This document shows positions 3,186-58,135 of a stretch of 64,000 nt of DNA, in pieces. The translations under genes were made by a program, and so were the position numbers. The stretch comes from Styela clava (Eukaryota > Chordata > Ascidiacea > Stolidobranchia > Styelidae): assembly GCF_964204865.1 (NCBI RefSeq), contig NC_135250.1, forward strand, positions 24,481,395-24,545,394, in the 5' to 3' direction. Within the stretch, counting starts at the first letter, position 1. Every line of letters starts with the position of its first letter. The notes below the pieces were generated by a model. It made no database searches. It saw nothing but the letters and a program-made list of their open reading frames with translations, and was not told the origin of the DNA.

Positions 3186-4592
3186 CAATTAGTTGCTCAG
3201 GATGAGTCTCCTTTCTTCTGATTGAGTACACAAAACTTTGCTCGGAGATGAGTCGTTTTTACATTTAAGTGTGGACACGTAACTCAGATCAAAGATGAGT
3301 CTCCTTTATTTCAGAGTGGCCGCTCATAATTTTACCCAAAGATGACTCTCCTTTACTTTTGAGTGAGTTCCATAATTTTGCTAAGAGGTGAATCTTTTTT
3401 ACTTCTGAGTAAGTGCACAAAATTTTACTCTGAGATGAGTCTTATTCATTCCTGAGGGACTGCACAAAATTTACTCAGAGATTAATATTCTTAACATCTG
3501 AACGATTGCCCTTAATTTTAATCGTGGATGAATCTTATTTACTTTTGCGTGATTGAATAAAACTATATTCAGAGGTAAGTCTCCTTTACTTTTGAGTGAC
3601 GGCAAAAAACTTTTCTCAGAAATGAGTCTTTCTTACATCTGAATTAGTGTACGTAACTTGCCTCAGAAATGATACATCTTTACTTATGAGTGAGTGCCCG
3701 GAACCTTGATTATAGATGAGTCTTCTTTACTTCGGAATGAGTGCACAGATATTTGCTCTTAGATGAGTATTATTCACATATGAGTGAGATCCCGTAACTT
3801 TGCTCAGAGGTGAGCCCCGTTTACCTATGAGTCAGCGCCCATAACTTCGCTCAGAGGTGAGTCCCTTTTACATCTGAGTGAGTCCATGTAACTTTACCTA
3901 GCAGGGAATCTCCTCTACTTCTGAATGAGTGCACAGAACTTTGCTATTCACTTCTGAGTGAGTGCACGTACTTTGCTCACAGATGAGTCTTTTTTACTTC
4001 TGAATGAGTGCACAAAACATTACTTAGATATGAGTCTTATTTACATCTGAGTGAGTGCCCGTAACTTTGCTCCGAGGTGAGTTCCCTTTACTTTTTAGTG
4101 AGTGCCGGTAACTTTGCTGAGAGATTAGTTCTATTTACTTCTGATTGAGTACCCATAACTTTACTGAGAGATGAGTCTTCTTTAATTAGGAGTGAATATC
4201 CATAACTTTTCTCATAAATGAGCCACCTTCACATATGATTGAGTGCTTTTGACTTTTTGAAGAAATGAGTCCTTCCTGTTGAGTGACCATAACTTACCTC
4301 AAAGATGAGTCTTCTTTAATTCTTAGTGACTGCTAAACTTTTTTCAGAGACGAGTCTCCTTAACATTTGAGTAAGGGTGAAAAACTTTTCTCAGAGATGA
4401 GTCTTCTTTGCTTCTAAGAGATTATTCGAAAATTTGTTCTGAGATGAGTCTGCTTTAGTTCTGAGTGAGTGTCCGTAATTGTTCTCAGAGATGAGTATCC
4501 ATTTTCTACAGAGTGGGTGCCCGTAATTTGGTTCAGAGGTGACACTTCGTTACTTCTGAGTGATTGCCCGTAATTTTCTGAGTGAGTGTCCT
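3186..4592. repeat. Minisatellite, ~47 bp unit, about 30 copies
   Basis: A long run of diverged tandem units, each built on a core like CAGAGATGAGTCTCCTTTAC followed by TTCTGAGTGAGTGC and CCGTAACTTTGCT. The spacing between successive ATGAGTC cores is mostly 45-50 bases. Units differ by substitutions and small indels, so the array is old rather than recently homogenised. No coding frame runs through it. Confidence 0.85.
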
Positions 4593-4804
4593 TTATTTAT
4601 ATATTTGAGCCAAAAATGTATTTCAATATCAATAGCTTTAATTAAAAGTGTTGAAAACCATATATTTAAAAATAAAAGGAGTTTTTCAACCGTCTGTCGT
4701 GAGGGTGAGTGTTGAGCTGCAATGGTTGAATAAAAAATGTTAATTGTGTTTAAACTTCAAATATTCGATTACGTCTTACTGCAAACAAGTATCATAGAAA
4801 AACC

Positions 4805-5653: not shown

Positions 5654-5960
5654 TCATATCATCAAATAATACACTAAACACGATATAATCGCAACAATTA
5701 CAAAACATATTGTCGCCAATCATATTCTCATTTGTTTTTGCATTGTTTTTTGAAATCCACAATCATATTTCCAATTGTTTTTCATCATTTGTTTTGTGAT
5801 ATCTCCTTCAACGATTTCTCTCAGAAACGCTAGATCTGAAATTTCTTTGTTCAGAAATTGACAGAGTGGTACCAGCCATAGTTCCATAACGTTGTATAAC
5901 AATAACGTTTCTTTCGGACAAGTAGATTGGACATACAAATTATGTTGGCGATACCGAGAT
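5654..5960 (-). pseudogene. Dead last exon of the sulfotransferase-like family
   Basis: The conceptual translation matches exon 5 of the four intact family genes at 34-61 kb. It keeps the SRYRQHN opening, a CPKE motif, a PLCQFLNKEI block, the WKYDCGFQ block and a C-terminal hydrophobic helix. Three defects are visible. The position where all intact copies have a splice-acceptor AG reads CAC. The YNV-x-W-x-PLC region carries one extra codon. An in-frame TGA at 5720-5722 falls just before the hydrophobic segment, which continues intact in the same frame to a second stop at 5654. I found no partner exons upstream on the minus strand. It is most likely a relic of a family member left of the present cluster. 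Confidence 0.8.
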
Positions 5961-6906
5961 GTGAAACACAATATATATCGACATAAATTTTTGTGAAAAA
6001 AACTCTGATTTGATGGAATGTCACCGAAGAATTGCAGATATTTTATTAATTTTCAAATTTAGTAGTTTCTTTGTGTTCTGTTTTCCATAAATTATAAATA
6101 GTTTCGTATTTCATATTTGCGACTACTATCAGTTACATCCATTTAGTTTCACGTAAATTACGCAATTATATTTATTGGTGGGCGTTAGAACTGAAGAAAC
6201 ATTATGGAAAATTTTCAATTTTTTCGATTTTAGTAGCATGGTCATAAAACAACTATTAGCGATAACTTAGTGATTACTGTATATTTAAACAGTAAAGTTC
6301 AGATTAATTGTAGAGTCTGAATTGGGTGAATATACATATATATATATATATAAGTGAGGCATTTCTTATCAACTTGTCCTCTATTGGCTATGAAGAGCTG
6401 GGGAATTTTGATAACTTTAAGTCATATTTCAACAAGTATAAGAAATTATGTTTACCAGACTGGGCTACATGTTTGAAGAGAAGACGTAGCATGCCTTATC
6501 AACACCCCACGCCAAAAAAACGACTCATAGATACTTTTGTAAGTTTCCAAAAATCCCAATCTTGAAATTTTATTTGAATATATTTCTACCTGACAACCGT
6601 CAACCGCTCTCGTTAAACTATTATGCTTTATAATTGCAACCAAGGCTTATATCTAGGAATGAAATAATAACCTTCTACTTACTTATTGTTGATTATAATT
6701 TATAATTGCAACTAAGGCATATATCTTAAGAAAAAAAAATTTCGACTTACTTATTGTTGTGCCACCTCCGTGGTACGGTCATGGTACTGGAGTATCATAT
6801 GAATTTAATTCAAATTGAACAATAATAAGTCAATTTTAAACGAGTTGCACGATCAAACAGACCAAGTAAAGCTAGTGTTAACATAAGTATAGATGACATA
6901 AGTATA
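5961..6906. other. Intergenic; short TA microsatellite
   Basis: Contains a short TA run near 6334-6352. A plus-strand frame at 6326-6565 begins inside or beside this run. I do not recognise its product and it lacks clear exon borders, so I leave it uncalled. Confidence 0.4.
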
Positions 6907-7142
6907 GGTACTCCCGTAGTATGTGAACCAAGATGGCGGACACCGGAACGTAGTATGTGTACCAGGTTAGGGTAAGGTCATAATTTTATTGATTTTTTCC
7001 TTATCTTAGTTCTATTACGAGTTCGGGGACTAGCCAAGTGACTCCCTTTGTATTTGTACCTGAAATTGAGGCCTAACTCTAACCTGGTACTCATACTACG
7101 TCCCGGTGTCCTCCATCTAAGTTCACATACTTCGGGAGTACC
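6907..7142. mobile_element. Foldback MITE, full-length copy
   Basis: Begins GGTACTCCCGTAGTATGTG and ends CACATACTTCGGGAGTACC, nearly perfect mutual inverted repeats. The arms extend inward through CCAAGATGGCGGACACCGG and ACCAGGTTAGGG on the left and their complements on the right, so about 60 bases on each side can pair. The centre contains TCTATTACGAGTTCGGGGAC, common to the long copies. There is no coding capacity. Confidence 0.85.
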
Positions 7143-7472
7143 TGAACGTAAGTATATGATAGAGCGAATATTGGAGCGTAAATAATTTGGACATACAGTG
7201 CCTGTAGTCATTTTACCGGAAGGCTTGAATAAACGTCGCATAGAATAAATCCAAGTCTTTCCCTCCCCAACCGGTCGTTCATGGGCCATTTTACTTGGGT
7301 TATGTTTTTGTTAACCATAAAACCCTGAAACTTCACTCATGGCTTTTTAATGGCGTGTGCTATAGTTCTATTCAGCAATATATGTTTAAAACTCACTCCT
7401 TTAAAAATATTTTTTCTATACGCAAAAATTCCAAATTTCTATTTATCTTGCGAGATTTTGCGTCTAGTAGAG

Positions 7473-10600: not shown

Positions 10601-11124
10601 CAAAATTTAAGAATATCTTGTAAAGTGTTTGACTGTAAAACAAATAATGATTATTATGCTGTTTTATGTACAAATGAAACGAAAGGCGGAAGCCTTTATA
10701 AAAAAACGCTATCATTATCTAACTTTCTTTAGTACCACCCATAAATGACTGTTTTATGAAAATTGCGACGATCGATAGTGCGTAATATCCAGAGGAGCCA
10801 CATTATCTTGTTCTCGTGGTCTCTCACTCTCTCTGCATCTACCTAGCATTGGTCATACTTGAATACGATTTTTATTGACTGGCACCCAATTACATAGTTT
10901 ACCATTGACTGTTTTCTGTGTATATATTGATCACCCATATCTTGATTTCTATTAGACATATTTTAATTGATGTAAGAATCAACAGATTCCCGTTTATTTG
11001 CTGAACTTCACAAATAAAGCTTGTAATAAAAAAAATAGCATTATCGAATGCATTTGGTTTCGGTTTCAAACATCAAAAATAGTAAGGTATATATCCACCT
11101 CGTCATTTTTTAATGATTTTATTG
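7691..11124. other. Intergenic, no supported gene
   Basis: Several frames of 60-100 codons exist (for example 9572-9880 on the minus strand) but none shows family resemblance or exon borders. The part near 10800-10840 has a CTTGTTCTCGTGG and CTCTCTC stretch that recurs in diverged form near 11925, suggesting local duplication within the peptide array. Confidence 0.4.
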
Positions 11125-11457
11125 TTATTCTTTTATCTTCAATTGTTCCCCAATTCCGACTAAAAACAGTATTATTAAATATAATATGGTAGGGTATTTT
11201 AATCACACTGACGGTTGTTATTACACGAAAAAGTTGAAAAAAAGCTGAACTACATATTCAACTTTTAAATTTCTAATAATATTAAAACATTAAGAATAAT
11301 TTATTTATCATTCTGCATTAAACATTCGTTTTAATTGCATTATATAAAAATTCTACTTACACCCGCCTCTTCCGCCTTGGCATGCAACCATGCCTATTGC
11401 TTGCAACAAAATCAGCAATGAAATTATCAGAGAGAGGGACAATCCGACAGAGCCCAT
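11125..11457 (-). CDS. Short secreted peptide, copy 1 (43 aa)
   Basis: Two exons, 11361-11457 and 11125-11159. Exon 1 starts at an ATG and encodes a strong signal peptide: a hydrophobic stretch SLSLIISLLILLQA, then a conserved MVACQGG at the likely cleavage site. It ends in phase 1 before a consensus GTAAGT donor. Exon 2 follows a TTTTTAG acceptor, supplies the two bases that complete the codon, and encodes GIGEQLKIKE before TAA. The predicted mature peptide is about 15-18 residues, glycine-rich then GEQL. The exon structure, phase and GEQL motif are shared with the copies at 15.5, 19.3 and 26.1 kb. I do not recognise the family; the role is unknown, and secretion is inferred from the leader. 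Confidence 0.6.
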
Positions 11458-14400
11458 ATTACTATAGTTATTATTCAACTACTAAATTATTATTCAACTA
11501 TTAAACCAAATTGAAATAAATAATTCTGTTTATTGTTATCACAAGAACAATCTTACCTTGCATCATCCACTGAAAACCACAGTAAGCAAGCACATCATAT
11601 TTAAATGATTTCCTCTATTTGGAAATATTGCTTTAAAACGGAATGTGGAAATTCCTATTAGAAAATGCTGACTGCCCGCTTCAAACGACGATTGGTGCCC
11701 GTCATTTCATATCTTGGAACACAAATATAGTTGTTTGCTTCCATAGGAAGATCACCCCTTTGTCCTAATTGCATGCACACCGTCGAGAGGAGCTAACGAT
11801 GCAGATAAATTATATTATGGATAACTTTCCTCTTGATTCCAGAAACTCCCTTTCGTGCTTCCCATATATATCCACGGCTATTGTTTGATAATTACGGCGA
11901 AAGGTCAATGACAAACAATGTCACATTCTCTTGTTCTCGAAATCTCTTCCCATCTATCTTTTCTGACATTTTTCATATTTTTTCGTTTACGATCTCTTAT
12001 TTAATATGTTACTGACTATTTAAGATTTTCGTGGTATTTTAATTCCGTCAATTTTGAACGTAGCCACGGTAATCCGTTAGATTCAAAAGTCCGCATTTAT
12101 ACAAATGTAAAATTATACAAATTAAATTCATAACCACGCGAGGTTTCTAGCATATATTGCAATATTGCAAATTGCACACAATATTTATATTATTATTTTT
12201 GACTTCCTTTTTGACTTACTTTCGGCCGTTAAATCGCGCGGGATTTTCGCCGATTTATCATAATTTTATAATATGTATCTTTTTCAGTCGCCATCAAAGT
12301 AATAAAATCCAGCGTTGAATTGTTACAAAACTGCTGAGCAGTTGAAGAAAATATGTTCCAATGTAACAGTCATTATGAATTGATTGATATTCAGTCTTAT
12401 TTCTACTGACATTCAGACATATTTCGGTACATGCTCAACTGGCAACTTTCCTATAGATTAGTTCCTGCCTACCGGCTTAGTCAAACTTGAATTAAATTAA
12501 TATAGGGCTGGATGAGGCTTGTACGGGACAACCAGTGGCCTATGTCCTAATTTCATTTTTGCATAAAATACAAAATTGCAGTTATATTTTATGTGACTAG
12601 TAAAATTGGTCACGTGTGAACACTTTTCACTTACGTAAATGTTATTGAGTGCACAAGATTGCGTTTTAAGCAAATACGCTTTTGGTCACCGTCTTTATTG
12701 TGAAATCATTTTCCCCAAATTTTGATTCATCTTAAAATGACCCTCAAATGTAATTGAAATTAAAAATAGGCTGACAGAATATGAGTTTTTTCGCACTGTC
12801 CGCAAAAAAGGTTATTTGGTATGTATTTTTCTTGAAATTGAGTTTTGGTCAAGATTGATGACATGGGGCGCTTGTATAGTTTAGTTATAACTGAATACGG
12901 TTTCGTAACCTGAAAGGAATGGAAGAGGATTTTACTGATATATTTGAAAACAATTTAAAAAAAATTTCTATCTTAAATAATGAATGTTAACTAGCATCTT
13001 TGCTCTTGCCTTTAAAACTGAGTGAATAAAACTAAAAATGAAATTTATATATTTTTACTAATTCTGTCAATTGGATTATAGGTTTAGTATTAAAAGTTAT
13101 TCAAATGCCTAAGACCTTTTCGTTCGAGTGGAAATTTCTACATTCAGTGAAGAAGTCCGAAATTTTAATCACCAAAGACGAAAAGTTCAAAGAATTTAAA
13201 AATTCGTCTCATGTTCCAACAAAAATGTAAAAACGCCAAATTCTGTCGTGCGAGTCCGTTGACAGTATTAATATTCTCTCCTTTTCATCATTTTTCTTTT
13301 ATCTCTACCTCTTTATTTTGTTTTGTAGCTAAATCGGTTTTTTCTTCTTTGTGATTTTTGTTTTCTGTCATTTTTTATTACAAATTTTTACTTCCATTTA
13401 ACCATCCAATTTTATTTTAATCTAATTTCAATACTGGGTATGTTTCTTTGATTATTTCAACTCGAAATGCCTTAAATCTACCATGATTTCCCCTTCATAG
13501 TTTCATCAAATTCATTAAGTGATTTGAAGATAAATAATGGCGCTGTTAGCATAACTATCTGAATAATTTAATAATTTTAAATTGGTTTTATTGACTTTAT
13601 TAGATTATTGTAACTTGTGCGAGATCCATGATCCGTTTGCTTGCGTAATTTGCGCTTCGATTAAACCTACAGAGGAAAACACGACGTGACTTTCATAAAT
13701 GAGTAAGAGCAGCACCATCCAATTGATTGGGATATTTCAACTAATATGTATATACATTATTTGGCTTTAAGCAAGTATCCTAACATAATCAATTTTAACA
13801 AACAAGCCAATCGTGGCTAGGGTTCTAAATGGTGACTGTCAAAACAGCAACTGTCATAATGGTGACTTCGTAATAGCGACGTAATCAAGTGAGCGACTGT
13901 CAAAACAGCGACAAACCCTAACCCTAACGACCTTACAATTAATGTGACACGACATAGCATTACCTTCCAACGACCGACCAGGAAATTCGACTCAGTGAAT
14001 TCAACTCAGTGTATGATCGTGCACACACACGCACAGTACGAATATTTTTGGTATGTTTGGTTTAATGACGTTAGAGTATAAACCTCTTCATTCTTTCACA
14101 TGACTTACCAAAAATTGGTCACGCAATGTCACTTCTCCACGCAAAATTTATTGTCGTACGCAAGTATCAATACTTTTTCAGTGATTGTTTAAAGTTTATG
14201 ATTATGATCACAAAATTTTGAATGAACCATCAGCCAACCATTTAGGTCATCGTATTTTAAAATTTAAATTTGAATCAAAGAAGTTGAATTTTATTGAATC
14301 AAAGTTTTTCAATTGTTCTATGTTATAGTAAATTTCAGAATGGCATAAATTCAAAAAGTTATCATCCAAATAAAATAGTAGTAGTCCAGGCTTTGCTCCA

Positions 14401-15475
14401 GTATTCATTATGCAAGACAGTGAAACAGTAACTAATATCTAATAATAATTAATAATATCGTTTAACAAATTATAGGATTCAATTAACAATAAAGATTTTT
14501 GCTGGATTTACAAGAAGCAATCATTCTTTCTTTTTGACACTCACTGAAAATTGTATCGCCAAATAAATACAATGAAATGATTCCCCATAATGGGGAAATC
14601 GAGATATTGGTTTGAAATCAGTGGAATACTTGATTTCCTCGGAGGAAATAACGAAAGTTCAAATGATTGAAACGTTTCATTTCCTTCTTGTCCCACGCTG
14701 GAATGTTCACATAAATCCACAATCAGAAATACCAGCCTTATTTTTTTTTTGGTCTTTTTTTATTTAAAGGTAAACGGCCGAGCAACTCAGTTTTAGCATG
14801 GTTAAACATGATCACTTAAATTTATTTTTAATTTTTCTTTTTTGTTTCCTCCGGATATCTTTACGAAAATACATTGTCAATTTCAAGTTCCATAGCACAA
14901 CAAAGTTGGTGTGTTTTATTTTTAATCCAGATAAAATCTTGAAAAACTCTCCTGGTCTGCTGGCAACTCGGGAAGAGAGAGCGACGAGGCGTGACTGACA
15001 AAATCTCCTGTCCTTCTCTCTCGCGAAAACTCTTTTCCATTACTTTATTTGTAAATTTTTGTTCTAACTGAATTAAAGACTACTTCACGATTCTATGGTA
15101 CTTTGAATTTCGATATTATACACATTGAAAATTGATGAAATTTGCCGGATCAATTTTTATTTCATTATTTTTTACTATACCACAGGTTGTTAGGTTGCTC
15201 TTTTTCTGTCTTGCCAACTTGCATTTATTTCGAAGCAGGAATATTTGAAATATATTATATCAAGCTTCTTTTGCACTTGACTTTTGACTTGAAGAAAGGT
15301 CACACACAAACATTTCTCAACAACTCTAATGTCATATAGTGATACAAAAGTAATTAAATCTCAAAGACTGTTTTCTGAGTATATATTGAAAATAATCAAA
15401 CTGATGAAACATCGCAAATCAACTCATTTCAATGCAGGTTTATTAACTGTAATAAATTCATTAGCCTCTAACAAT
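11458..15475. other. Spacer between peptide copies 1 and 2
   Basis: No gene supported. Segments recur in diverged form elsewhere in the array. The region upstream of copy 1 (11540-11760) resembles that upstream of copy 2 (16255-16430). A CTCCTTTTCATC and TCTCT-rich stretch near 13275-13390 recurs near 25100 and 29250, and TTCAACTAATAT near 13735 recurs near 25565 and 29875. These shared blocks show that the array grew by duplication of several-kilobase units. Repeated GACTGTCAAAACAGCGAC-type phrases lie at 13830-13915. Confidence 0.55.
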
Positions 15476-15904
15476 TTATCCTCGATAATCGTGCATCTCC
15501 AACTGTTCTTTGAATCCATCTGAAAATGCAGAATCGACATAGAGTTCATTGGGCGTTTTTGCACAGTTCACAACGAGTATTTAATTAAGCACTTTTCTGG
15601 AAATTAAGTTTCGTTTATCAAACAAGTACAGCATGAATTAAATGGTGGGTTTAGATTTTCAATTTTTGAAACTAAAATGAGAATAAGTCCGAAAACAAAA
15701 CAAAAAAATTTCATAAAAATCTAGTACTGAATATCAAATAAAATGAATTGAAACGATTTTCATGTGTAACTTTAGAGCATTATATTAATTCTACTTACGA
15801 CTGCCTCGTCATTTTTGACACACAACCATGAATATGGTGTGTAGTAATATCAGTATCAAATTGATGTACACGATCAATAGTTTAGCATTCACTCCGAAAT
15901 GCAA
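15476..15904 (-). pseudogene. Short secreted peptide, decayed copy 2
   Basis: Exon-equivalents lie at 15799-15904 and 15476-15519 with the same phase and a good GTAAGT donor and TTTTCAG acceptor. The start codon position reads TTG instead of ATG, and a TGA interrupts the frame just after the VVCQ cleavage-site block. Exon 2 is still open and encodes GFKEQLEMHDYRG before TAA, clearly homologous to the other copies. The splice sites survive while the start and frame are lost, so this is a recently dead member. Confidence 0.6.
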
Positions 15905-16562
15905 ATTTCGAGTATGACAAATACTATTCAATACCTAGTAATGAAGAAATTTGACAAATAACGAGAATCAAGTTGCAAAATTGAATGATTTGTATGTAAA
16001 CTTCTATATGACGATCATGTACTTCGATGCAAAACAGCGCTAAACTTATTCTCATCTGATATTGACGGGAAATCGTAAACACGAGTGCTACATACATCTT
16101 GTTGTAAATTTTTGACTGTGGCAATTTTTCTGTTCAAATTTGTAAAAATCTGGGAAACTCCTCTCTTTATGGTGATCATAAAATACAATAATTCAAAAAT
16201 TACAACGTTATTATGAGTATTCACCGAACACCACAACAAACAAGGACATTATAACAAAATGATTTCTTTATTTAGGGATATTGATTTGAATCCGAATGTG
16301 AAAACTTCCTGTTGGGAAATGATGTCTGGCTGCTTTTGAATTCTTGACAGGCTTCGGTTTCATATCTTCGCACAAAAATATGGTAGTTTGCTCTCATTCA
16401 AAAATGGCCGCTGTCTCTTTTTTTTTGGCACATGGTTCAATAAATGTAAATTTTATTATGGTTAAACACAACCACGGTCGAGTATTTTATATTTCCATTT
16501 TTTTCATTTTTTTGTCGAATTACCTAAAATATCTTTTCTAGAATAATTTGCCAATCATTTCA

Positions 16563-18891
16563 TTATAAAACAAAAAAACAAAATTCCTTCGGAGTTCCCG
16601 TGCCGGCGGCACCTTGATAAATTTCAAAATCGACTGCTCGCCCAGATTTACCACAAATAACAAAATTCTTGGGACCAACAGGATTGGGTTTACCTTTGAC
16701 GAATCGCTTAGCAGGTACTCTACCAGTGAAATGAATCATTTGCTCATCAACTGCATTAAATTCTTCACGAGGCAACTGGATGCAACGATTTCGAACTGCA
16801 TTAATAACTGGTTGCACCTTCCAAAACTTGCTTTTTTATCCAGTAGGAGGTTGTCTAGCGCATTCATGTGTAAGCTATTTTGCAGCAGGAAGTATCTATT
16901 AACGGGCATGGATTCAGCAATTCTGTCAACACGGTTCACTTTTTGCCAATACATCCGAAGTCGTGGGAAACCCAAGTTTGCCATCACATTCGACGCCCCA
17001 AAAAAGCGACAGATTTCGACTGAATCGGTTCCAATAATTCTACCCTTTGCTTGCAAGTGATAAATATTTGTTTGATCCGCAAAAAATTGAAATAGTTCTG
17101 GTTGGAAGTAGTTGAAGAAATATTTTGCAGGCGTATCTAGAGCAGGGTGGTTCAAACCCTGGCCCGCCGCTTCATTATCTGTGGCCCGCCTCGCATTTGC
17201 GCGAGGGTAAACCAAAAATCGCATTTGGTGTTGTTTCGTAATACAAATAACCAGAAAAATCTTCTGACATATTGTTACATCACTAATAAATGTCACTGAA
17301 TTGACTGGTGTTAAGGCTAGTTGAGAAACTTGAGGTAACTAGCAAAGTTGAATAATGTGTTTGGCTAGTCTAAATTGTTAACTAGTATTCTATTTTTTGG
17401 TCGGGAATATATGCTAACAAAATAGGCTTAATTAATAATAGGCTTAATTAATGGAAAACTAAAAACCGAATGAGGAATCTATTTAATTAGCCTAGGTTGG
17501 CTATGCCTGATGCCTATATATTAATGTAACGGCGGAACAACATAATTCTTGGCGGGTGTTTTTTTTGTCAACCAGCCTAAACAGTAAAAAATGCTGCCTA
17601 TATGTCAGAAAAGTTAGTATTTACTCTCTCAAATTTGGTAAAAGTAGGTAATCAATCAATCTGCAGTTATTTTGTAAACATGTCTTCAAGTTGTAAACGT
17701 GACATTCTAAAACGACATTTTCTTCGTTATGAAGAGTTTGGAATCCCACACTAAATGTAGATATAGTAAGATTTTTGCACGTTTTTGTGAGTTTCTGGTG
17801 GTTTTGGCATGTTTTAGCTTGATAAATAACAAATAATGATCAATGTGTTTATGAAATAAAAGTGTTCGTTTTGTATTGCAATGTTCACCTATTCTTGGCA
17901 CTATTTTGGCCCGGGAACAATACAAAAATAATACTGTGGCCCGCGAGGCCGTCAACCTCGGACCACCCTGATCTAGAGGATCAGCAGCAATTGGCTTTTC
18001 TTGCCAGGTCAGAAATCCAGGCTGAAATGGATTTCTATCTGGGGAATGCCACTGTATTTTGATCATTTTCTTCTGTTGCTTATTACTGTTTACAGTATCA
18101 GCTGGCTCCTCACTCTCTTTCACGCCTTCATTGCTGGTCGAAACTACCAGCCTGTTATTGATACTGCAAAAATTTGGATCGTAGTCTTCTTCCATATAAT
18201 CTTCGAATCCAGAAAGGTCAATGTCTGACTCATCTAGTCGATCTAACACCTCTTTTGCATTCAATATCTCATGCCTCACTAAAACAAAACATAATTTATT
18301 GCCAGGGTTGGTATAACACTTGCTATTTTACAGCCTGGAAAAATATTTTAGCTTCAGTTCTATAAAAGTATACCTTTAAAAATTAAAGCTTTTTCTATTA
18401 CCATATACGTTTATTATCTCCTAATCACTGTTCTATAAAACTAAGACCTTGATTTACATTACCTCAAGCTGTACTGCGCTACCATAAAAATACCAAGTTA
18501 GGCTACAGTTTGGGATAATTTTAACATGAAATTTTCTGCTATAATCAATATAACAGAGAGGCATTTGGTAACAGAACTTTCAATAACACTGCAACACATG
18601 ATTATAAACTTTCCTGGTAAAATTTATAGTCCTAGAAACATATAAAACAAAGTGATTTATTTTATGAAAGTCTGTGCTTTTTCTCATGTTTTTCACGAAA
18701 GGTACCATTGTACACACCAATTTTTAAAAAATTATACCATCTACATATTAGCTCAATCGAAACCAAAAACTGGATAAACGTCACCCCAAGTAGTCCTAAT
18801 TGCAGTCTAAGCCTAATTTATTAGCTCTACACACAAGAAAATGGTAAAAAAAATACACCAACTTACCGCTTGTTGAGCATGCTTCAGCCAT
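16563..18891 (-). pseudogene. piggyBac-like transposase gene, split by a hAT insertion
   Basis: Exon 1 (18867-18891) encodes MAEACSTS and ends in phase 1 at GTAAGT. Exon 2 starts at 18278 after TTTTAG and encodes an acidic N-terminal region, then the start of the DDE_Tnp_1_7 (piggyBac) fold. The frame is broken at 17143-17970 by a foreign hAT element; skipping it and one copy of its 8 bp duplication restores a continuous PLD-TPAKYFFNYF reading. A frameshift follows in a run of six A on the coding strand (16832-16837). The frame then resumes with NAVDEQMIHFTG, holding the first catalytic Asp, and GRVPAKRFVKGKPNP. Homology stops at about 16563, so the later catalytic residues and the Cys-rich tail are missing. 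No TTAA-flanked ends were found, so the element is truncated at least on its 3' side. Confidence 0.85.
17135..17978. mobile_element. hAT non-autonomous element with perfect 8 bp TSD
   Basis: The element proper is 17143-17970 (828 bp). The left end reads CAGGGTGGTTCAAACC and the reverse complement of the right end reads CAGGGTGGTCCGAGG. It is flanked on both sides by ATCTAGAG (17135-17142 and 17971-17978), an exact 8 bp target duplication as made by hAT transposases. CCGC-rich GGCCCGCC patches sit near both ends. There is no coding capacity. Its interior is homologous, in reverse, to 20639-21210 and 22466-22775, so at least two family members are present. It interrupts the piggyBac-like gene. 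Confidence 0.92.
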
Positions 18892-19289
18892 CGCAATTTC
18901 CACGCTGCAAGAGGACTCACCACTAGGCGGAGACATAAAACCAAACTCATAGAGCGATAGAACCGAGAAAGCTCAATTGAACAAACCGTGACTAATTTCG
19001 GTTAGGTGTATCACGTGAGCTATAGCGACCGCAGAAAGTCGCTGGTACAATTATACACGTTGTGACCGAAGGGAATAAATTGAAATTGCCCATATTGATA
19101 CAAATCATAAGTCAATTTATTTTAACTCAGCTTTTATATATCGCTCATCAGATACATTTCAAATAATGTTATACACATCATATTTTCATGTATATTCTGA
19201 ACCTTATGTAAAACACCTGGAATATAAAAATATATAATGAGCAAATATGCAAATATGAGTAGTTTAAACTTGAATATATGATCACCTCA

Positions 19290-19779
19290 TTATTCTTCGG
19301 GGATTTCATCCTCCAACTGTTCCACGTAGCCTGATGAAACAAACAAAATTGACTCAAGAGTTCAAGGGAGGTTTTCATTTGGGTTGGCAAACACGATATT
19401 CAATTCAATCAATGATATTCGAGAGGGTTTAAATTTTCAGTTTGACCAACAAAGATTTAAACTCTGGCAACAACCTAACTACCCACCCACTCCATCCACA
19501 ATGGTTTAATTTCTTCTTTTATATCTTTCATATGCCGCGTTACTGGAATGTTTTCAAAGATTTCATACGTTTTACTATCCTATACTATTCACAATCAAGC
19601 TGAATTTGGCATATTCCCCCAATTTCATAACTTCAGCATTAAAAACTTTACTCACCCCCTGCGAATTCTCCTCTTGGATAAACTCCTCCTTGACATGCAA
19701 CCATATTTACAGCTTGCAAAAGCATCAGTAATGAAATAACCAGCAAGAACAATAGTCGGGCATGATCACCAAAATTCAT
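19290..19779 (-). CDS. Short secreted peptide, copy 3 (54 aa)
   Basis: Exons 19656-19779 and 19290-19330. Exon 1 encodes MNFGDHARLLFLLVISLLML, a clear signal peptide, then QAVNMVACQGG and a proline/arginine-containing stretch VYPRGEFAG. It ends in phase 1 at a consensus GTGAGT. Exon 2 follows a CATCAG acceptor and encodes YVEQLEDEIPEE before TAA. Cleavage near VAC/QGG would release an acidic peptide of about 25 residues with an N-terminal Gln that could cyclise. The leader is almost identical to that of copy 4 (HFGPNARLLFLLLISLLMLL), and the untranslated sequence just upstream (TAGTTCCATCAC) is also shared. All signals look intact, making this the best candidate for an active gene. Its function is unknown. 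Confidence 0.65.
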
Positions 19780-20027
19780 ATTCCGAGTCTGGGAGAAAAC
19801 TAAGTTTGTATGTGATGGAACTATTTATGAAAACAATATAATACAAAAAAAAAGAAATTCGTTATTTCGTGTAAAAAAGTGATTGCATTGTCAATGGTTT
19901 CACACAAATGTCCCACTACCGCCTTGAGAAAATAACACTTCCATTACAAGTGGCAAAATTGTTTTCTGGCGAGAGGCTTTCTGTAGCAAGGTTGAAGGAT
20001 TCTGTCAGAATGGCAGTAAATAATTTT

Positions 20028-20138
20028 GGGTGCTCCTGAAGTATGCACACCAAGATGTCGCATAACCTGAACCCTAACCTGGTACACAACCTGAGTTCAG
20101 GTTGTGCGCCATCTTGGTGCGCATACTTCAGGAGGTCC
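20028..20138. mobile_element. Foldback MITE, short variant
   Basis: A compact hairpin: TGCTCCTGAAGTATGCACACC on the left pairs with its complement ending at about 20138. The middle contains CCCTAACCTGGTACAC and the arms contain a diverged CCAAGATG motif. It resembles the copies at 50238 and 52944. Confidence 0.7.
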
Positions 20139-20638
20139 TAATTTTGTTTATTATTATGCTAAGATATAAGGAATTCCACATTACATGTTTTTATGCTTGA
20201 TACCAGGATCACAATACGTAACAAAACAATAAACTCAGTTTTACCAGTCGTCGCCAAGATGATGCCTCAGTGAAAGATCAAAAGAGCAACAAAAGTGTTT
20301 GGACCTGTAATTTTCTGTTTTAAACAGTCTTTTAAACAGTCTAGCTACATAAATTTGAAATAGAACAAGAACTACATGAATTTTAGAAAATATACAAATT
20401 AATTGATTATTTTTGAAAAATAGCATTTTTATATAAAAGATCTGTTTAGATAAATGATTCAATATGAAGCTAATGCATGTCTATCCTAAACATCAGTATG
20501 CATATTCTCAAGCTCATACGTAAAAGCAAATTAATCTTGCAAAGCCCGTCATTACAGTTTCTGCTCAACGATATTTTACTTTTTAAACATTTTACAGCTT
20601 TTCTCTTGTGTTTTTGAGTATAAACAAAAAATCTAGAC
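20139..20638. repeat. Local duplicated block, copy A1
   Basis: Matches 23380-23900 over most of its length. Shared landmarks include TTTTACCAGTCGTCGCCAAG near 20240 and 23410, TTGCTCAACGATATTTTAC near 20560 and 23835, and AAACAAAAAATCTAGA at 20621-20637 and 23890-23905. A hAT element is inserted exactly at the CTAGA end of this copy, while the other copy runs on without interruption. The content is probably non-coding. The conserved CGACGACTG before GTAAAACTGA on the minus strand could be a remnant exon border. Confidence 0.65.
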
Positions 20639-21210
20639 CAGGGTGGTCCATGGTTGTCGGCTCCAGGGGCCATAAAATTATTTTTGCATTGTTTGCGGGC
20701 CACAATATTACGAAGAATAGGTAAACAGTGAAATACAAAACAAACTCCTATTGTGCAAACACATTGATCAGAATCTGTCATTTATCAAGCTAACCAATGC
20801 AAAAACCGCCAAAAAACTTACTAAAACCTGCAAAAGTTTATCTATATCTACATATAATGTGAAAACTTCCCATAACGGAAAAAGTGCTTCCGCAAATGTA
20901 AGTGCTTTCAAACATCGATAAGATTTTCAAAGCAAAATCCGATTTTTGAAAAACGCTCATTGCTCACAACATTCTAAAATGCCTTTAAACTTCAATACTT
21001 TTGTCACCAACACAACTTGCCGACATATCAAGCAAGCATTGTGGTATATTTCCTTCCACATCCAGTTTAAAAAATATGTTTGAATTCGTCAGCTTTCTTT
21101 TCAAACTCGTGTTAACAAAATAACTGCAGATTAATTGATTATCAAATATGAGGTACAGATGGGTAATTAATAAATTTTATGACATGATAGGTAGCATTTT
21201 TTGTAATACT

Positions 21211-22465
21211 GTTTAGACCAGGGGTGTGCAACAGGTGGACCGCGGGCCACAACCCGGCCCGCCAAGACATTTAGTGTGGCCCTTGTCAATACTCTGATTT
21301 TTACCCATCAAGCATAAAATCCCAATCCGACAGTTTAATTAGACCTGGCGATTAAGACCTCGTGTATCTTTTTAGTAGCTTAGATAGAAACAGTAATTTG
21401 ATTATGACAGTACGTGACGTGAGCATTCTTTGGATTTGTGGTTTAGACTCGTTCAGTTATAAGCTCTGTCTAGCAGATTAAGTTTTTAGATAAAATGTGT
21501 TATCTTACTAGCCAGGAATTGTTGTTAACCGTCATTGCCTTTTCACTTGATTCGCTTGTTTACAACAGTACATTGTGATGTAATAATCCCTCATAGTGAT
21601 TGCTAGACACTTTCCAGTTACTAGCTTTCAAGAATTTGAAGCAGTTCAGTAGCCTATTTTGCTAGTTTCGTGAGGGTAATATTTTTTTGATGATTTCAGG
21701 GCTAGTAAAATGTCGGCAGCTAAGAAGCAAACAATTGATGAAGAAGGAAGGGTATTCAACAGTCAATGGTGTACAAAATATTTCGTTGTCCCACACAACC
21801 AAGGTGCTGTCTGCCTCGTTTGTCAAAGTACTATTGCAGTTATCAAAGAGTATAATGTTAAACGTCATTACATAACTAAGCACTCCTCCCAGTTTGATAA
21901 AATTCTCGGCCAGGCACAAGTAGACAAAATGGAACATTTAGAAAAATCCATTGAAAAACAACAAAGTGTTTTTACCAATTACAAAAAGGAGTCAAAACTG
22001 GTGACAAAGTTGAGTTTTGAATTTTGTGAATGTATGGCAGAAAAGGGAAAGCCTTTCAGTGACGGAGAATTTATTAAAAACTGTTTGACAATATTTACAG
22101 AATATGCATGCCCAGAGAAAAAACATTTGGTGGAGCAAACCAGCCTTTCCCGCTTTACTGTTTCACGCCGAACAAATGATCTTTCAGATAATATCAAAGA
22201 AACCTCGAAAAAGAGGTTGAAATCGTGTGAAGCTTTCAGTCTGGCATTGGATGGGAGCACTGATATCAGTGACACAAGTTTGCGTTCAACTCACTATTTC
22301 TGCAAGAAACCCTAATATTGCCGTAAGATAACTAGCAAAAATAAACAATTTCTGTACCAGTAATTACGAGAAAGTCCATATTAAATAAAGGTGCGGCCCG
22401 CGGCTTCACCCAGTTACTTGAATTTGGCCCGCCGGTGAAAAAGGTTGCACACCCCTGGTTTAGAC
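21211..22465 (+). mobile_element. hAT element carrying a truncated transposase
   Basis: The element is 21219-22457 (1239 bp) between perfect 8 bp duplications GTTTAGAC at 21211-21218 and 22458-22465. The ends are CAGGGGTGTGCAAC and its complement. GGCCCGCC-rich ends and a transposase frame on the plus strand identify it as a hAT element of the Charlie/ZBED type. It lies inside an older hAT element, so its insertion is the later event. Confidence 0.93.
21710..22315 (+). pseudogene. hAT transposase, N-terminal part (BED finger, ZBED5/GTF2IRD2-like)
   Basis: A 201-residue frame starting at an ATG. Residues about 25-60 hold a BED-type zinc finger with CLVC and a following H-x3-5-H (HYITKH). A coiled, lysine-rich linker follows. 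Near residue 180, ALDGSTDISDT holds the first catalytic Asp of the RNase-H-like fold seen in ZBED5/GTF2IRD2-type hAT proteins. The frame then stops, and only about 140 bases remain before the right end of the element. The remaining catalytic residues and the dimerisation domain are therefore deleted. An intact enzyme would be about three times longer. The retained finger could still bind element ends, but catalysis is excluded. Confidence 0.85.
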
Positions 22466-22938
22466 TGATTGTGAAAAATATCTATGCATGAGGTATATTG
22501 TTAGGCCATAACATCAATATTTGGTTATCAGGCATAGTCTAGCCAACCTAGGATAATAGCATCCGCATTTGATTTTTAGCTTTCTATGATGCCAAGATTA
22601 TTAGCGTATGTTCCCGACCAAAACGATAGAAAGCCAGATAACAATATAGACTTTGCTCGTTGTATAAGCTAGCCATAACACTAGTCAATTGGGTGACATT
22701 AGTGATGTAACAATATGTGAAAAGATTTTTCTTGTTCATTTCAAGACTAAACAACACGAAATGCAATAAGTTGTTATAAAATCCTTTTTATTTTCAGAAA
22801 ATTCTGATATCAACCAAACTCTTAATATATATCTTTTATATCTTCAAATAAAAACAAAACAGCCCACGAGGCTTTCACAAAAAATTTTTTTTTCAGTCTA
22901 TTCTATAGGTATTTTATTTTTAATAATTTTATCGGCTT

Positions 22939-23003
22939 TTATTTTCTCACGGCATGAGGAACGGCAAACTTTGGCCCACAACTGTATGCGAAACTATTAA
23001 TAT
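22939..23003 (-). pseudogene. Cysteine-rich mini-exon, decayed copy a
   Basis: Reads INSFAYSCGPKFAVPHAVRK then stop. It aligns with the other three copies but lacks a four-codon segment containing the third Cys, and its first Cys is replaced by Ser. The position of the splice acceptor reads CTGG instead of an AG. The length difference from its relatives is a multiple of three. Confidence 0.45.
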
Positions 23004-23217
23004 CCAGTAATGTATATTATAGCTTGGGCGTGTTGGCTGGTGTTGTTTAATGGTATTATAAGCCCTACGTCATTTTTTTTTGTTTATTAGCGAATCCTTA
23101 TTCATAGCTCTAGGCGTATTTTCTTAATATTGTTTGTTACATTTTCGAGTTTACGTTCCGACTTTCTGCTTTAAACAAGGATTTGTTGTTTCAAAACTCC
23201 CAAATATCTATTTCACA

Positions 23218-23300
23218 TCACCAAGCGTATACATATTTAGGAGAAACTTTAAACTGCTGCTTACAGTCATCCTCACAACTGTGTGCGATGCAATCAATAT
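23218..23300 (-). CDS. Cysteine-rich mini-exon, copy b
   Basis: Follows a good acceptor (CCTTACTAG) and starts with two bases that complete a split codon, the same phase as exon 2 of the short secreted peptides. It encodes a spacing C-x4-C-x3-C (DCIAHSCEDDC) followed by KQQFKVSPKYVYAW and stop. Four copies of this exon occur, all on the minus strand. The frame is preserved despite nucleotide divergence, which argues for coding ancestry. I could not identify a confident first exon for this copy; sequence upstream near 23410 is the candidate. Function is unknown; a small disulfide-bonded secreted peptide is the inference. Confidence 0.4.
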
Positions 23301-24712
23301 CTAGTAAGGACGGAACTGAACAAATCATGGAGATATAATTCTGTCTATCGTTATCACAGAAAACAACAAACCATACATTACATGTTTCTTACTAGCAGTT
23401 TGCATTAGTCAGTTTTACCAGTCGTCGCCAAGATGATGCTTCAGTGAAAGGTCAAAAATGGTAACAAAAGTGTTTGAACCTGCAAGTTTACTGTCTCAAG
23501 TGATTTGTGAACAAAACTAAGCACACCCGCTTTGAAACAGTCACGTATTTTACTTAGCAACAATAAGGCTTGAACAGTTCTCACAGTCGCGCTATTATGC
23601 GACTACATGAATTTTAGATAAAATATATATTAATTGAATGTTTTTGAACAATAGCATTTTGAATGAATTAAACATTCCATAGTGTATAATAGGAAAAATA
23701 TTTCTTCCTTGGGCATTGCAAAACCTATGAAGCTATAACGAAATATTATGATAAACATCACTATGCTCATTCTTTGGCTCATCCTTAATTAAAGAACAAA
23801 TTAATCTTGTAAGGCCTATCCTATCGATTTTTGCTCAACGATATTTTACATCTCAAACATTTTACACCTTTTTTCTATGAAATTGAGTTTAAACAAAAAA
23901 TCTAGATATTTCATTCATAAAAGTCTAACTAAGCTAGTTTTATAACACCGTTTATGTACGATTGTTATATTTAATAACAATGTAGTCATATTTCATAGCT
24001 TTAGGCGTGTATTCAGTTCTAAATTTTATTTTCGGCTTAATCTCATTTTTAGTTTTCATCGTAGTAAATTATAATACTTCGTAGCCTATGACGTGTCCGC
24101 TTAATATGGTTTATCAAATTCCAAGCGACACAAGTTAGCTTCAAACAAATTAATACTTTCAGTTTTCAGAAAATATCAGTTATCAACCAAATCCTTCCAT
24201 ATATCTCTTTCAAATATCCGAGCAAAAAGGCAGTTCACGGTGCGTTTTACAAAATATAGTTTTTTAACAAACAATCCATACATGTCATTCATAGAATAAA
24301 GTTGAGTTAAGCATATTGTATAAAGCATCTAATGTACAATTGATGTAATCAACAAAGTAATCATATTTCATAGCTTGAAGCGTGTAAGTTCAAAATTTCA
24401 ATTCTAAATTTTATTTTTGTTTCAGCGTCCATTTTGTTTTGTTTTTCCTTAGTGAATTATAATACTTCGTAGCTTTAGACGTGCCCGCTCAATATAATAT
24501 ATTATATTTTAGGCGCCACCATTTAGCTTCAAATAAACTTTAACACTTATTATTTTCAGAAAATTTTGATATCAACCAAACCCTTCCATATAACTCTTTC
24601 ACAACTCTAAAACAAAACAAACAAAAAACAGCCAATGATGCGTTTTACAAAAAACAGTTTGTGTTTTAGTCCATTTTATAGGTATTTTTTTATTCTTATT
24701 ATTATTCTCGAC

Positions 24713-24789
24713 TTATTGTCTCACGGCATGAGAAACAGCAAACTTTGGCACACAGTCAAGCCCACAACTGTTTTCGAAGCAATTAATAT
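24713..24789 (-). pseudogene. Cysteine-rich mini-exon, copy c
   Basis: Encodes NCFENSCGLDCVPKFAVSHA and ends VRQ plus stop, retaining the C-x4-C-x3-C spacing. The acceptor position reads CTGA rather than TAG, so splicing to this exon is doubtful unless another AG is used. It lies downstream of short peptide copy 4. Confidence 0.4.
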
Positions 24790-25020
24790 TCAGTAATGTA
24801 ATGTTATATTATAGCTTGGGCGTGTTGGCTGGTGCTATTTTAAGGTATTATAAGCCCTACGTCATTTTTCTTTGTTTATCAGGGAATCCTTATTCATATT
24901 TTTAAGTTTAACGTTCCTAGTTTCTGCTTCAAACAAGGTCTTGTTGTTTCAAACTCTCAAATAGCCATTTCACATCACCAATCTTATACATATTTATGAT
25001 AAACTTCAAACTACAGGTCG

Positions 25021-26122
25021 TTTTTCTCAATATATCTTTGTTGGGTACTGACACCAAGCCTTGCCTACATTGAGCAAAATCTCTGTTTCTTTAAGTACTA
25101 CTTATCCTCCCCATTTATCATATTTTTTTCTCTCTTTCTATTTTATTTTATAGCTAAAACTTTTTCTCTCCTTCTTGATTTGTGTTTTTTGCGATTTCTA
25201 CCTCAGATGTTTACTTCCATTATACCCTCCAAATTTTTTTTCAACTAATTAGGCAAATGGAAACTTCAATACCAGGTATTTTCTCGTGATTGTATCAACT
25301 TGAAATGCTTAGAATCTGTCGTGAATTTCACTGCAATATCTTGATTGAATTCACTAAGTAAATCAAAGATGAATAATAGCGTTTTTAGCATAACTATCTG
25401 AAATAAATATAAACGGTTTCATTCAGTTTATTATGTTATTGTAAATCCTGCGTGATCTATATTCGCTTACTTGTTTAATTCGCGTTTTATTAAATCTACC
25501 AAGAAAAACACACTACGTGACTTTCATAAATACGTAAAAGCCGCTTCATTCAATTGATTGGTATATTTCAACTAATATTTATATTCTAAAAAAACTCTCT
25601 GTTTTAAAAATATTTATATTCTGAATAAACTCTTTGTTTTAAAAAACAAGCAATCGTCAATAATGAAATAGTGAATAATCACTAAAGTAGACAGCGGCCA
25701 AGTTGAATGATTTGCATTCAAAACTAACATCAATCCATTAAACAACATTCTGATATTTTACAAAATATACCTTGCGTTGATCAGACTAAAACACCTCTCA
25801 CAAATTCCCATTCGTTGTGGCTCAAGAGTATTGAATTTCTCATATTGATAAAATCAAAAGTTGATTTCTTACAATTCAGTTTTTATTTTCAAGCTTTATT
25901 TTTATAAGATATGATATAGATAAATGTTAGACCTAGTTTATATAATATGAATAGCATTCGATATAGTAGGATTCCTTGTATATTCAGAAATCCGCGGAAA
26001 ATACCTGAAAATTAATGAAGATAATGTCAATTAAGTACCGATTGCATACACCAAAATAGACAATTTAAAATTCAAATTCACCTCATTATTTACCATATAC
26101 CAAAATAGACAATAATTTACAT
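25021..26122. other. Spacer between duplicated blocks and peptide copy 4
   Basis: No gene supported. 25090-25260 and 25370-25700 match 13270-13400, 13500-13800 and 29240-29940 in diverged form, showing that the array unit extends well beyond the peptide exons. Confidence 0.5.
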
Positions 26123-26870
26123 TCATCTCATTATTTTTTGAAACTGCTCCCAATATTCTTTCATCTCCAACTGTTCCTCGAATCCCACTGAAAATACGAA
26201 ATAAGCAAGATCATGCGATGTTTTCACACTGTTCGTTAAAGATTATGAATTACTTGAATTAATTGTTCGATTAACTATGATTTCAACTTAGGCAACGATC
26301 TAACTATACACCCATTCGCAAATTTAAAATGATTTCGGTTTGATCTTATATATATCTTTTTATGAATTGGATTGGATTTACATATTTATCCCGGGGAGAG
26401 GAAAGTGTCAAGACGGCTTAATTTATAGCAAACCACGACCTCTCTTCTGGCTATTAGACCATGTCGGGTATGGAATCAGTTAGCCAGTTCTTTTGTTTAC
26501 AGAAGTATGGCCTTGATGGTGGCGGAAGTCGACCCTCTGTTACGTCAACCACCCTACGGCGGTGAGGAATCAAGCAACCCTCTCGCACATAATAATCTCC
26601 CACGGGATTTGAACTTGCAAATCCACGCATGATAATAAGAGGTGCTGTGGCAAGCGTATTCCTAACGTTTATACGCCACAACGCCAAGTCTTTCACGTTA
26701 GTGAAACGTTTTCAAAGTTTTGACATATCTGCCAGTTGCAGACTCCAGCATTAACTCCACTTAATTCCTCCATTTTGTCTTTGGCATGCAACCTTATCTA
26801 TAGCTTGCAACAGCATCAGCAATGAAATTAGCAACAAGAACAATAGTCGGGCATTAGGACCAAAATGCAT
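26123..26870 (-). CDS. Short secreted peptide, copy 4 (about 59 aa)
   Basis: Exon 1 is 26756-26870 and exon 2 is 26123-26187. Exon 1 encodes a signal peptide MHFGPNARLLFLLLISLLML and the conserved VACQ block. The donor is less certain: GTTAAT at 26750-26755 gives the correct phase 1, while a GTGGAG four bases upstream would shift the frame. Exon 2 follows TTTTCAG and encodes GFEEQLEMKEYWEQFQKIMR before TGA, the longest tail in the family. A tRNA-derived SINE occupies most of the intron. The mature peptide would be about 29 residues, amphipathic and rich in E, Q and K. The role is unknown. Confidence 0.55.
26363..26698 (-). repeat. tRNA-derived SINE
   Basis: Read on the minus strand it starts with a tRNA-like head containing a box B match, AGTTCAAATCC, preceded by a plausible box A. 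A tRNA-unrelated body follows with CCGCCGTAGGGTGG and TTCCATACCCGACATGG, and it ends with CCCGGGATAAATATG and a short AATCC-type tail. It lies inside the intron of short peptide copy 4. A 5'-truncated relative is at 1818-2043, and shorter 3' fragments appear near 36112-36165 and 52060-52140. Confidence 0.75.
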
Positions 26871-27925: not shown

Positions 27926-28014
27926 TTACTTTTTTACATCACATACATATTTATGAGAAACTGCAAACTTTAGCTCACAGTCATCTTCACAACTGTTTGA
28001 GAAGCAATTAATGT
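27926..28014 (-). CDS. Cysteine-rich mini-exon, copy d
   Basis: The best preserved copy. After a TTCATTACTAG acceptor it encodes INCFSNSCEDDC, then ELKFAVSHKYVCDVKK and TAA. Cysteine spacing is C-x4-C-x3-C-x11-C, enough for two disulfides. It begins with two bases of a split codon, matching the phase-1 donor of the array's signal-peptide exons. A degenerate signal-exon relic lies just upstream at about 28118-28176. Whether the pair forms a functional gene is uncertain because that relic has lost its ATG. Confidence 0.45.
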
Positions 28015-28117
28015 CTAGTAATGAAGGAACTGAACAAACAATGGACATATAATACCATCTATCGTTATCCTAGAAAACAATAAACCATAAATAACATCTA
28101 TACATGTTACAATATCA

Positions 28118-28176
28118 GCATTGGATTTACCAGCGAAAAGAACAGTATTATAGCATTTGCTCCAGGATTCACATTT
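28118..28176 (-). pseudogene. Short secreted peptide signal exon, decayed copy 5
   Basis: Aligns with the start of the signal exons of copies 3 and 4: NPGANAIILFF-type coding followed by an early stop. The start codon is replaced by GTG (AATGTGAAT context). The second half of the leader and the VACQ block are lost. Confidence 0.4.
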
Positions 28177-38018: not shown

Positions 38019-39491
38019 CTATATTAGGTGAGGTCATAGTTGTGTAAAACTTCATTTATGTAAGTCCACTGATTCACTTCAAGAAGCGAGTACTTTACGC
38101 GAGCTCTATTTACGTATAAATATACTGAACGCTTTTAGACTCACATTTATACTATACAGTTGTTTTACAATTTACATAAAGGTCTGATCTCATTTAAACA
38201 AATCAGAACACATAAAGGAATAAACAAGTATTTTATTAAAAGGCATTAATTATATAACACAGAAGTAGAAATCACTAGGTGATAAATTGATTTTTCATAT
38301 TTATAATATAATAATTGCATTGAATTTGCATGAATAACAAATTGCATTGATAAGCACAACAGGTAGATTGTCGGTTTTTTCAGTAAATTTTGTAATGTTG
38401 TTTTTGACGGCGACCAATGAGTATCTAAACATTATCATATAAAAGGTTGAGATATAAATTTCCATACGTGGGAAAGCCAAGGAAAAATAATTCCACAATG
38501 ATTCTAAGTCTAGAAATAATAATGAGTAATAACGGTTACTATCGATTAAACAGAGTGGTTGCTAGAAAAGCAGAAAATTTGTCAAACAGCTATCTATTTT
38601 TACAAAGAAAAACTTTTACAAAGTCATTTAAAAGCATAGGTTATGTTACACTGAACATTACATAAATCCAATAGAACCTAAACGGTATCGACTTAAGCCT
38701 AGAACTTAAAAGAAATTAAAACGTATTTAAAAAAGATGAGTAAGCATGCATTTTATTTAAGATCTCGTGTATAAGACTTGTGCTACTGAACACGAAGTGG
38801 ACTAATGAATCGTTTTGTTAAATTGTTGTTGTAAGCATTCTTCTTGTTTTAGATGTAGTGAAAAAGTTGCTCCCTCTTTAACTACTGAACCAATTTCTTT
38901 GAAATTCTCAGTAGTTGAAGTATTGTTGCCGGTTGAATGATTTATTTATTTCATTTATTTCTGTGGTCTCAATGGGATCTGTTGAAGTACTGGACTGTAA
39001 CCGTACTGTAAAATATTTGACACTACTTTGCCTTCGTGTCCATATATTTGAGCATTGCTCTCCTGTATTTTTAAGGCACACTTCATTTGAGTTACAAACC
39101 GAGGTTGCATATATACTTTGCATAAAACTTTTTTGGAATTTGGGTAAGATATCACAAAACTTTAATTAAGTTGTTAACATCATCTTCATCTAAAATCAAC
39201 ATTTTATTGAAATGATCTAAGTAGTTTTTGGAAGAGAACATTCAAGTATTGACATGATAATTACTATGCATGAAATTGGGTCAGTAAAATATTAATGACA
39301 TTGATTGTAAAAATGGTGATCACAGTATTCTTTTCAAATACATAAAAAAATTAGCGTGGTTCAAATAACAATTAGAGTTGTAACGAACTTTGAGGGTCCA
39401 CATCAACACGTGAGAGCCCCAAACAAAATATTGAACTTTAAATAAAATAGTAGTAGTTTTGTTAATGAGCAATGATTTGTCCATTTGAAAA
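38019..39491. other. Intergenic with an unclassified dispersed repeat
   Basis: 38780-39000 resembles 31570-31800, 45575-45700 and 48050-48240. Shared phrases are GTGGAC-AATGCATCGTTTT, an AACTACTGAACCAATTTCTTTG motif and CTATTTATTTC near TGTGG. No other feature is supported. Confidence 0.45.
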
Positions 39492-39727
39492 GGTACTCCC
39501 AAAGTATGTCAACCAAGATGGCGGACACCTGTACGTAGTATGCGTAACAGGTTAGGGTTAGGCCATAACTTTATATTCAAATTTTTCTTATTTTAGTTTT
39601 ATTACGACTTCGGGGACTAGCCGAGTGACTCACGTAGTATTTGTACCTGAAATTATGGCCTAACTAACTTTTTACACATACTACGTTCCGGTGTCCGCCA
39701 TCTTGGTGCACATACTTTGGGAGTGCC
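39492..39727. mobile_element. Foldback MITE 15 bp beyond the stop of sulfotransferase gene 2
   Basis: GGTACTCCCAAAGTATGTC and CACATACTTTGGGAGTGCC form the ends, with CCAAGATGGCGGACACC arms. The right edge falls 15 bases past the gene 2 stop codon on the minus strand, so the element probably supplies most of that gene's 3' UTR. Confidence 0.85.
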
Positions 39728-39742
39728 CATTAAAATACTCAA

Positions 39743-46554: not shown

Positions 46555-46739
46555 GGTACTCCTGAAGTCTGCGTACCATGATGGTGGACACCGGAACGCA
46601 GTATGTGTACCAGGTTAGGGTTAGGCCATAATTTTATTCCAATTTACCTTATTTTAGATCTATTAGGAGTTCGGAGACTAGCCAAGTGACTCCCGTAGTA
46701 ATTATATCTAAAATTATGGCCTAACCTTAACATAGCCAG
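46555..46739. mobile_element. Foldback MITE, right arm truncated
   Basis: Starts GGTACTCCTGAAGTCTGCG with GTACCAGGTTAGGGTTAGG and the conserved centre. The right arm breaks off after GGCCTAACCTTAAC. Confidence 0.7.
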
Positions 46740-49159: not shown

Positions 49160-49165
49160 TTTATT
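49160..49165 (-). terminator. Possible polyA signal overlapping the stop of gene 3
   Basis: On the minus strand the last codon and stop read CAATAAAAAT, so AATAAA includes the TAA. I see no other AATAAA within the next 100 bases downstream. Confidence 0.3.

Positions 49166-58099: not shown

Positions 58100-58135
<36 letters not shown>

Follow-up and report, generated by a model that had tools for sequence, protein, structure and literature searches.

A putative tandem array of very short secreted-peptide genes in the ascidian Styela clava

A stretch of 64,000 nucleotides from Styela clava (NC_135250.1, positions 24,481,395 to 24,545,394; hereafter the window) raises the question of whether several tiny, signal-peptide-like exons on its minus strand belong to a genuine family of peptide genes. 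Gene finders tend to miss products of 43-59 residues that are split over two coding exons, and such families are therefore probably under-counted. A first-pass annotation, made from the sequence alone, had proposed at least four minus-strand loci with a conserved leader exon and variable mature parts. Here, we follow up this proposal. The reading that we prefer, at a probability of roughly two in three, is that of a tandem gene family under birth-and-death turnover, encoding very short, cysteine-free secreted peptides of a defence or signalling type, this role being argued from the class to which such peptides would belong.

Five copies of the leader exon lie on the minus strand, at 11.4 (copy A), 15.9 (B), 19.8 (C), 26.9 (D) and 28.2 kb (E), and are met along that strand in the order E, D, C, B, A. 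The leader exons annotated at 11361-11457, 19656-19779 and 26756-26870 were borne out by reading and translation, and the count of at least four loci holds, similarity on this strand having revealed a fourth leader, at 15799-15904, and a relic near 28096-28172. In copies A to D a homologous small exon 2 with an EQL motif follows the leader. Exon 1 measures 97, 106, 124 and 115 bases in A, B, C and D (each 1 mod 3), and intron 1 measures 201, 279, 325 and 568 bases, each ending in AG; the junction is in phase 1 and the acceptor restores the EQL frame in all four copies. The shared plan that had been described stands for the VACQ motif (VVCQ in copy B), the phase-1 intron and the EQL exon.

Homology among the copies was assessed with DNA models from which the copy in question was left out, the exon borders given to the models having been picked from the same sequence. 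The held-out leader was recovered with E values of 2.9e-14 (A), 1.9e-8 (B), 7.8e-24 (C), 5.2e-23 (D) and 2e-9 (E, which entered none of the five leader models and none of the codon tests below), and the best match beyond the five copies in any of these five runs had an E value of 0.48. For exon 2 the held-out values were 0.011 (A), 1.9e-6 (B), 3.3e-4 (C) and 3.6e-11 (D), which leaves the exon 2 of copy A weak on its own; the held-out exon ranked within the top four matches in every one of the four runs. The leaders and exons 2 recovered in this way lie on one strand and in the correct order. A signal-peptide-like look alone is no evidence, since a crude hydrophobicity filter lets through 17 ATG frames of the window, of which just three are A, C and D; values on the hydropathy and moment scales are read as ranks only. 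Taken together, the leader copies, the phase-1 EQL exon, the leave-one-out recovery and the preservation of the leader as the best-kept zone (see below) support a real family of short-peptide genes that would have arisen by tandem duplication. A sixth exon 2 candidate, at 12687-12805, reached an E value of 0.011 in a full, longer model and is not counted here; with the shorter leave-one-out models it scored 1.2 and 1.6 in two runs and lay outside the eight best matches in the other two, and no leader was found upstream of it (best match 14376-14408, E 1.3).

Copies A and C are the only intact ones, and both retain start, frame, donor, acceptor and stop. Exon 1 of copy A (11361-11457, minus strand) encodes the leader MGSVGLSLSLIISLLILLQAIGMVACQ followed by GGRGG and ends at a GTAAGT donor, and the coding part of exon 2 (11125-11159, minus strand) adds GIGEQLKIKE before the stop, for a product of 43 residues. 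Exon 1 of copy C (19656-19779, minus strand) encodes MNFGDHARLLFLLVISLLMLLQAVNMVACQ followed by GGVYPRGEFAG and ends at GTGAGT, and its exon 2 coding part (19290-19330, minus strand) contributes YVEQLEDEIPEE and a stop, for 54 residues. Among the 972 GT dinucleotides scored, the donors of A, B and C lie at percentiles 97.4, 95.0 and 99.9, scores from the donor matrix being valid as ranks only. The leader of copy A has no positive residue ahead of its hydrophobic core, which counts against the preferred reading.

The other three of the five copies are damaged or doubtful. Copy B is a pseudogene: its exon 1 (15799-15904, minus strand) opens with TTG where ATG would be expected and is interrupted by an in-frame TGA after VVCQK, with the GTAAGT donor retained, and its exon 2 (15476-15519, minus strand) is open, reading GFKEQLEMHDYRG and a stop. 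Copy E is a leader relic (28096-28172, minus strand) with GTG for ATG and a stop at codon 22; its similarity breaks off where a dispersed repeat (27943-28097) starts, and no exon 2 for it was found in the window. In copy D, exon 1 (26756-26870, minus strand) encodes MHFGPNARLLFLLLISLLMLLQAIDKVACQ followed by RQNGGIKW, and its end at 26756 requires a weak donor, GTTAAT, at the 41st percentile of the 972 GTs; another GT nearby reaches the 64th. Exon 2 (coding part 26123-26187, minus strand) reads GFEEQLEMKEYWEQFQKIMR and a stop, giving 59 residues if the weak donor is spliced. The earlier range of 43-59 residues is borne out for the predicted products of 43 and 54, its upper end hanging on this donor, and the four loci cannot be treated as equally sound, given the missing ATG and in-frame stop of B and the donor of D.

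The ancestral donor of copy D appears to have been lost by a change from GTAAGT to TTAAGT, since TTAAGTGGAGTT sits 16 bases past the VACQ codons, exactly where A and B share GTAAGTAGAATT after their VACQ and VVCQ codons. The weak donor lies exactly 9 bases beyond the lost one and preserves phase 1; the donor of copy C lies 34 bases after the VACQ codons, as against 16 for the donors of A and B and, judging by the alignment, for the one that D has apparently lost. Unspliced, the frame of copy D closes after 39 residues (..GGIKWS), and if neither GT works the product would be this 39-residue form without EQL. Intron 1 of copy D is longer than those of A to C and contains a repeat (26358-26608) related to 1813-2047 (70.8%).

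Downstream of the stop codons, homology between A and C and between C and D around a likely 3' splice site, together with AATAAA signals, suggests a non-coding exon 3. In copy C this predicted exon (19116-19216, minus strand) would run from after CCAG to the first AATAAA and has homology to D and A; in copy D (25882-26004, minus strand) it would run from after TTTTCAG to the second AATAAA, both boundaries being set by eye. The post-stop alignments of C with D (E 7e-4 and 7e-10) extend around the likely splice site up to the AATAAA signals. In copy A, the stretch 10951-11049 (minus strand) has its homologue in copy C where intron 2 would end and predicted exon 3 begin (65% over 100 columns, E 5e-8), with an AATAAA at 10998. 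The region downstream of copy B has weaker matches of this type (E 0.001 to D, 0.019 to C).

The leader had been described as conserved, and in alignment score it outranks the five other zones compared in every one of the six pairs of A to D (z 5.0-18.9). This test compared alignment scores with those of 300 single-base shuffles, used intron and post-stop pieces of 80-90 bases, and left out the exon 1 tail. Exon 2 (z 2.7-7.5) is the second-best zone in five of the six pairs, the exception being C-D, where upstream DNA scores 4.7 and exon 2 4.0; the ranges elsewhere are 1.4-5.4 for the intron end, 0.2-5.4 upstream, 0.1-3.5 for the intron start and -1.1 to 0.9 after the stop. An identity-based comparison of the zones, with low gap costs and unpenalised ends, failed to separate homologous sequence from shuffled sequence, and none of its figures is used here. 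In percent identity the leader is no better than upstream DNA in pairs with B (61, 61 and 63% vs 63, 60 and 69%), and in these pairs only the gap-aware score separates the two.

A dN/dS analysis of the leader codons, which the first-pass annotation had proposed, gave an answer that depends on the dead copy. With A to D a one-ratio codon model yields omega 0.34 (2dlnL 10.46, p 0.0012), or 0.37 under F1X4 (p 0.003); freeing kappa raises omega to 0.42, an improvement of 2dlnL 7.97 on omega 1 and kappa 2 at the cost of two parameters (p close to 0.02, worked out by hand). Once B is removed, A, C and D give omega 0.56 (p 0.17), or 0.61 under F1X4 (p 0.25), neither of which is significant. These values support purifying constraint on the leader in the past, much of the signal coming from the long branch of the now-dead B, and not demonstrably a present constraint on A and C. 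The copies differ most, in length as well as in sequence, in the exon 1 tail behind VACQ, a short and gapped stretch of 5, 11 and 8 residues in A, C and D; the strong variation once ascribed to the mature parts as a whole is found there but not at the start of exon 2, where the EQL region is conserved, and any fast evolution of the mature parts under selection is putative.

The loss of B and E, the apparently lost donor of D and an omega not significantly below one for A, C and D would also be expected if the whole family were dying, every copy being at or near the pseudogene stage of a secreted peptide that was formerly useful, with A and C still open only on account of their shortness. We consider this unlikely, since A and C have kept every one of the signals listed above and the leader is the top-scoring zone in the A-C pair, as it is in all other pairs. 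Under the preferred reading of a birth-and-death family, and provided that expression of A and C is real, the array would be a compact case of peptide-gene birth, splice-site drift and death within 17 kb.

As regards transcription, splicing, secretion and function, we infer the following working. Exon 1 would encode a signal peptide up to VAC, then Q and a short variable stretch, often with Gly; after the phase-1 intron, exon 2 would supply EQL near its start, a mostly charged tail and the stop, and a probably non-coding exon 3 would follow. The peptide would enter the secretory route and be cleaved by signal peptidase between VAC and Q, a site that fits the small-residue rule for this enzyme, after which the Gln now at the N-terminus may undergo cyclisation. 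Cys is absent from the mature parts of A, C and D, as are dibasic [KR][KR] sites, and for want of such a site the peptide would probably be released whole, with 17 (A), 25 (C) and, if spliced, 30 residues (D); a single GR, in copy A, lies within the peptide. The predicted mature peptides are QGGRGGFGIGEQLKIKE (A, net charge +1), QGGVYPRGEFAGGYVEQLEDEIPEE (C, -6) and, if spliced, QRQNGGIKWMGFEEQLEMKEYWEQFQKIMR (D, 0). Action outside the cell, most likely as a defence-type or signalling peptide, may draw its specificity from the variable front, with the EQL part in a common contact or carrier role. In neuropeptide precursors the peptide is flanked by dibasic sites, often with an amidation signal; A, C and D differ in having no such site.

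The earlier statement that no known family is recognisable is upheld by the searches made. A Pfam-A scan of A, C and D found no family above its curated cut-off (none at all for A and C; at best SiaC for D, with 14.7 bits against a cut-off of 24.5), and a PDB search with copy D found no useful match, a designed helical repeat protein (E 0.015) and a carbonic anhydrase (E 0.91) being uninformative. A text search of a limited literature collection found neither the peptide strings of this family nor those of the neighbouring sulfotransferases, and nothing on Sulfotransfer_4 or on ascidian short peptides.

In layout, the nearest parallel is with the myticalins of Mytilus, in which signal peptide and variable stretch share one exon, a phase-1 intron follows, the C-terminal part lies in the next exon, and three pseudogenes are reported alongside four potentially functional genes (PMC5577615). 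The order of parts, the phase-1 intron (here in four of four copies) and the dead copies agree, and one could picture precursors of this style, in which the exon for the signal peptide also carries a variable mature peptide, and the conserved anionic extension beyond the phase-1 intron is cleaved away. This is quite improbable, however, as A, C and D offer no dibasic cleavage site and the variable stretch comprises just 5-11 residues, one or two of them basic. In myticalin genes the 5'UTR has an exon to itself, the mature peptide is cationic and a dibasic site is present (PMC5577615), whereas the extra exon here is likely a 3'UTR one; the comparison is one of layout, and the absence of the dibasic site and the cationic mature peptide keeps the present family from being filed with the myticalins. 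Similarly doubtful is a lineage-restricted family whose mature diversity would come from a shifting exon 1 donor, with copy D gaining three formerly intronic residues ahead of a fixed EQL tail.

The array also has partial parallels elsewhere. The pipid frog skin peptide cluster likewise holds duplicated secreted-peptide precursor genes in a single cluster, some of them dead, but its precursors have 75-96 residues and RXXR, KR or RR cleavage motifs and its genes lie in both orientations, unlike the predicted 43-59-residue, one-strand products without dibasic sites here, a comparison made on organisation (PMC3731216). Schistosome micro-exon genes resemble the array in signal peptide, small exons and secretion (here predicted), but are built mainly of symmetric exons of <=36 bp, as opposed to two coding exons with a phase-1 junction and an exon 1 of 97-124 bases (PMC8293314). 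Overall, the impression is of a rapidly turning-over family of small secreted peptides, and of a type already familiar.

That the leaders serve as alternative first exons for some larger gene farther downstream, the short peptides being an artefact of picking the nearest exon 2, is very improbable: all copies do share one strand and a sulfotransferase last exon does lie downstream at 5681-5959, but A to D each have their own exon 2 in the right phase with its own stop, the sulfotransferases have first exons of their own (four found), and 5681-5959 carries an in-frame stop. This decayed exon, left of the array, is the fifth of its kind in the window. On the right-hand side, four Sulfotransfer_4 genes are represented by exons (34207-36736, 39743-45290 and 49161-53216 on the minus strand; 55673-60704 on the plus strand), with first exons at 36736, 45290 and 53216 (minus) and 55673 (plus) and with relatives among solved sulfotransferases that include the schistosome oxamniquine-resistance enzyme. 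Scans of the 64-kb window for tRNA genes and Rfam families found nothing. A tandem array with a unit of about 47 bases occupies 3193-4600. Scattered over the window are transposon remains and palindromic repeats; the latter, some 240 bases long and reminiscent of miniature inverted-repeat transposons, lie at 6906-7143, 34874-35113, 39483-39736 and 48718-48945, with a shorter one at 46555-46731. Transposon remains comprise a DDE_Tnp_1_7 fragment (16736-17338), which we take to be of PiggyBac type, and a zf-C2H2_12 frame (21680-22315), presumably hAT-like. Inverted repeat pairs at 17577-17977 and 20632-21216 (75% and 78%) flank copy C, and a direct duplication of about 480 bases (13272-13753 and 25103-25584, 73%) lies downstream of B and D and may mark a duplicated block, or a repeat.
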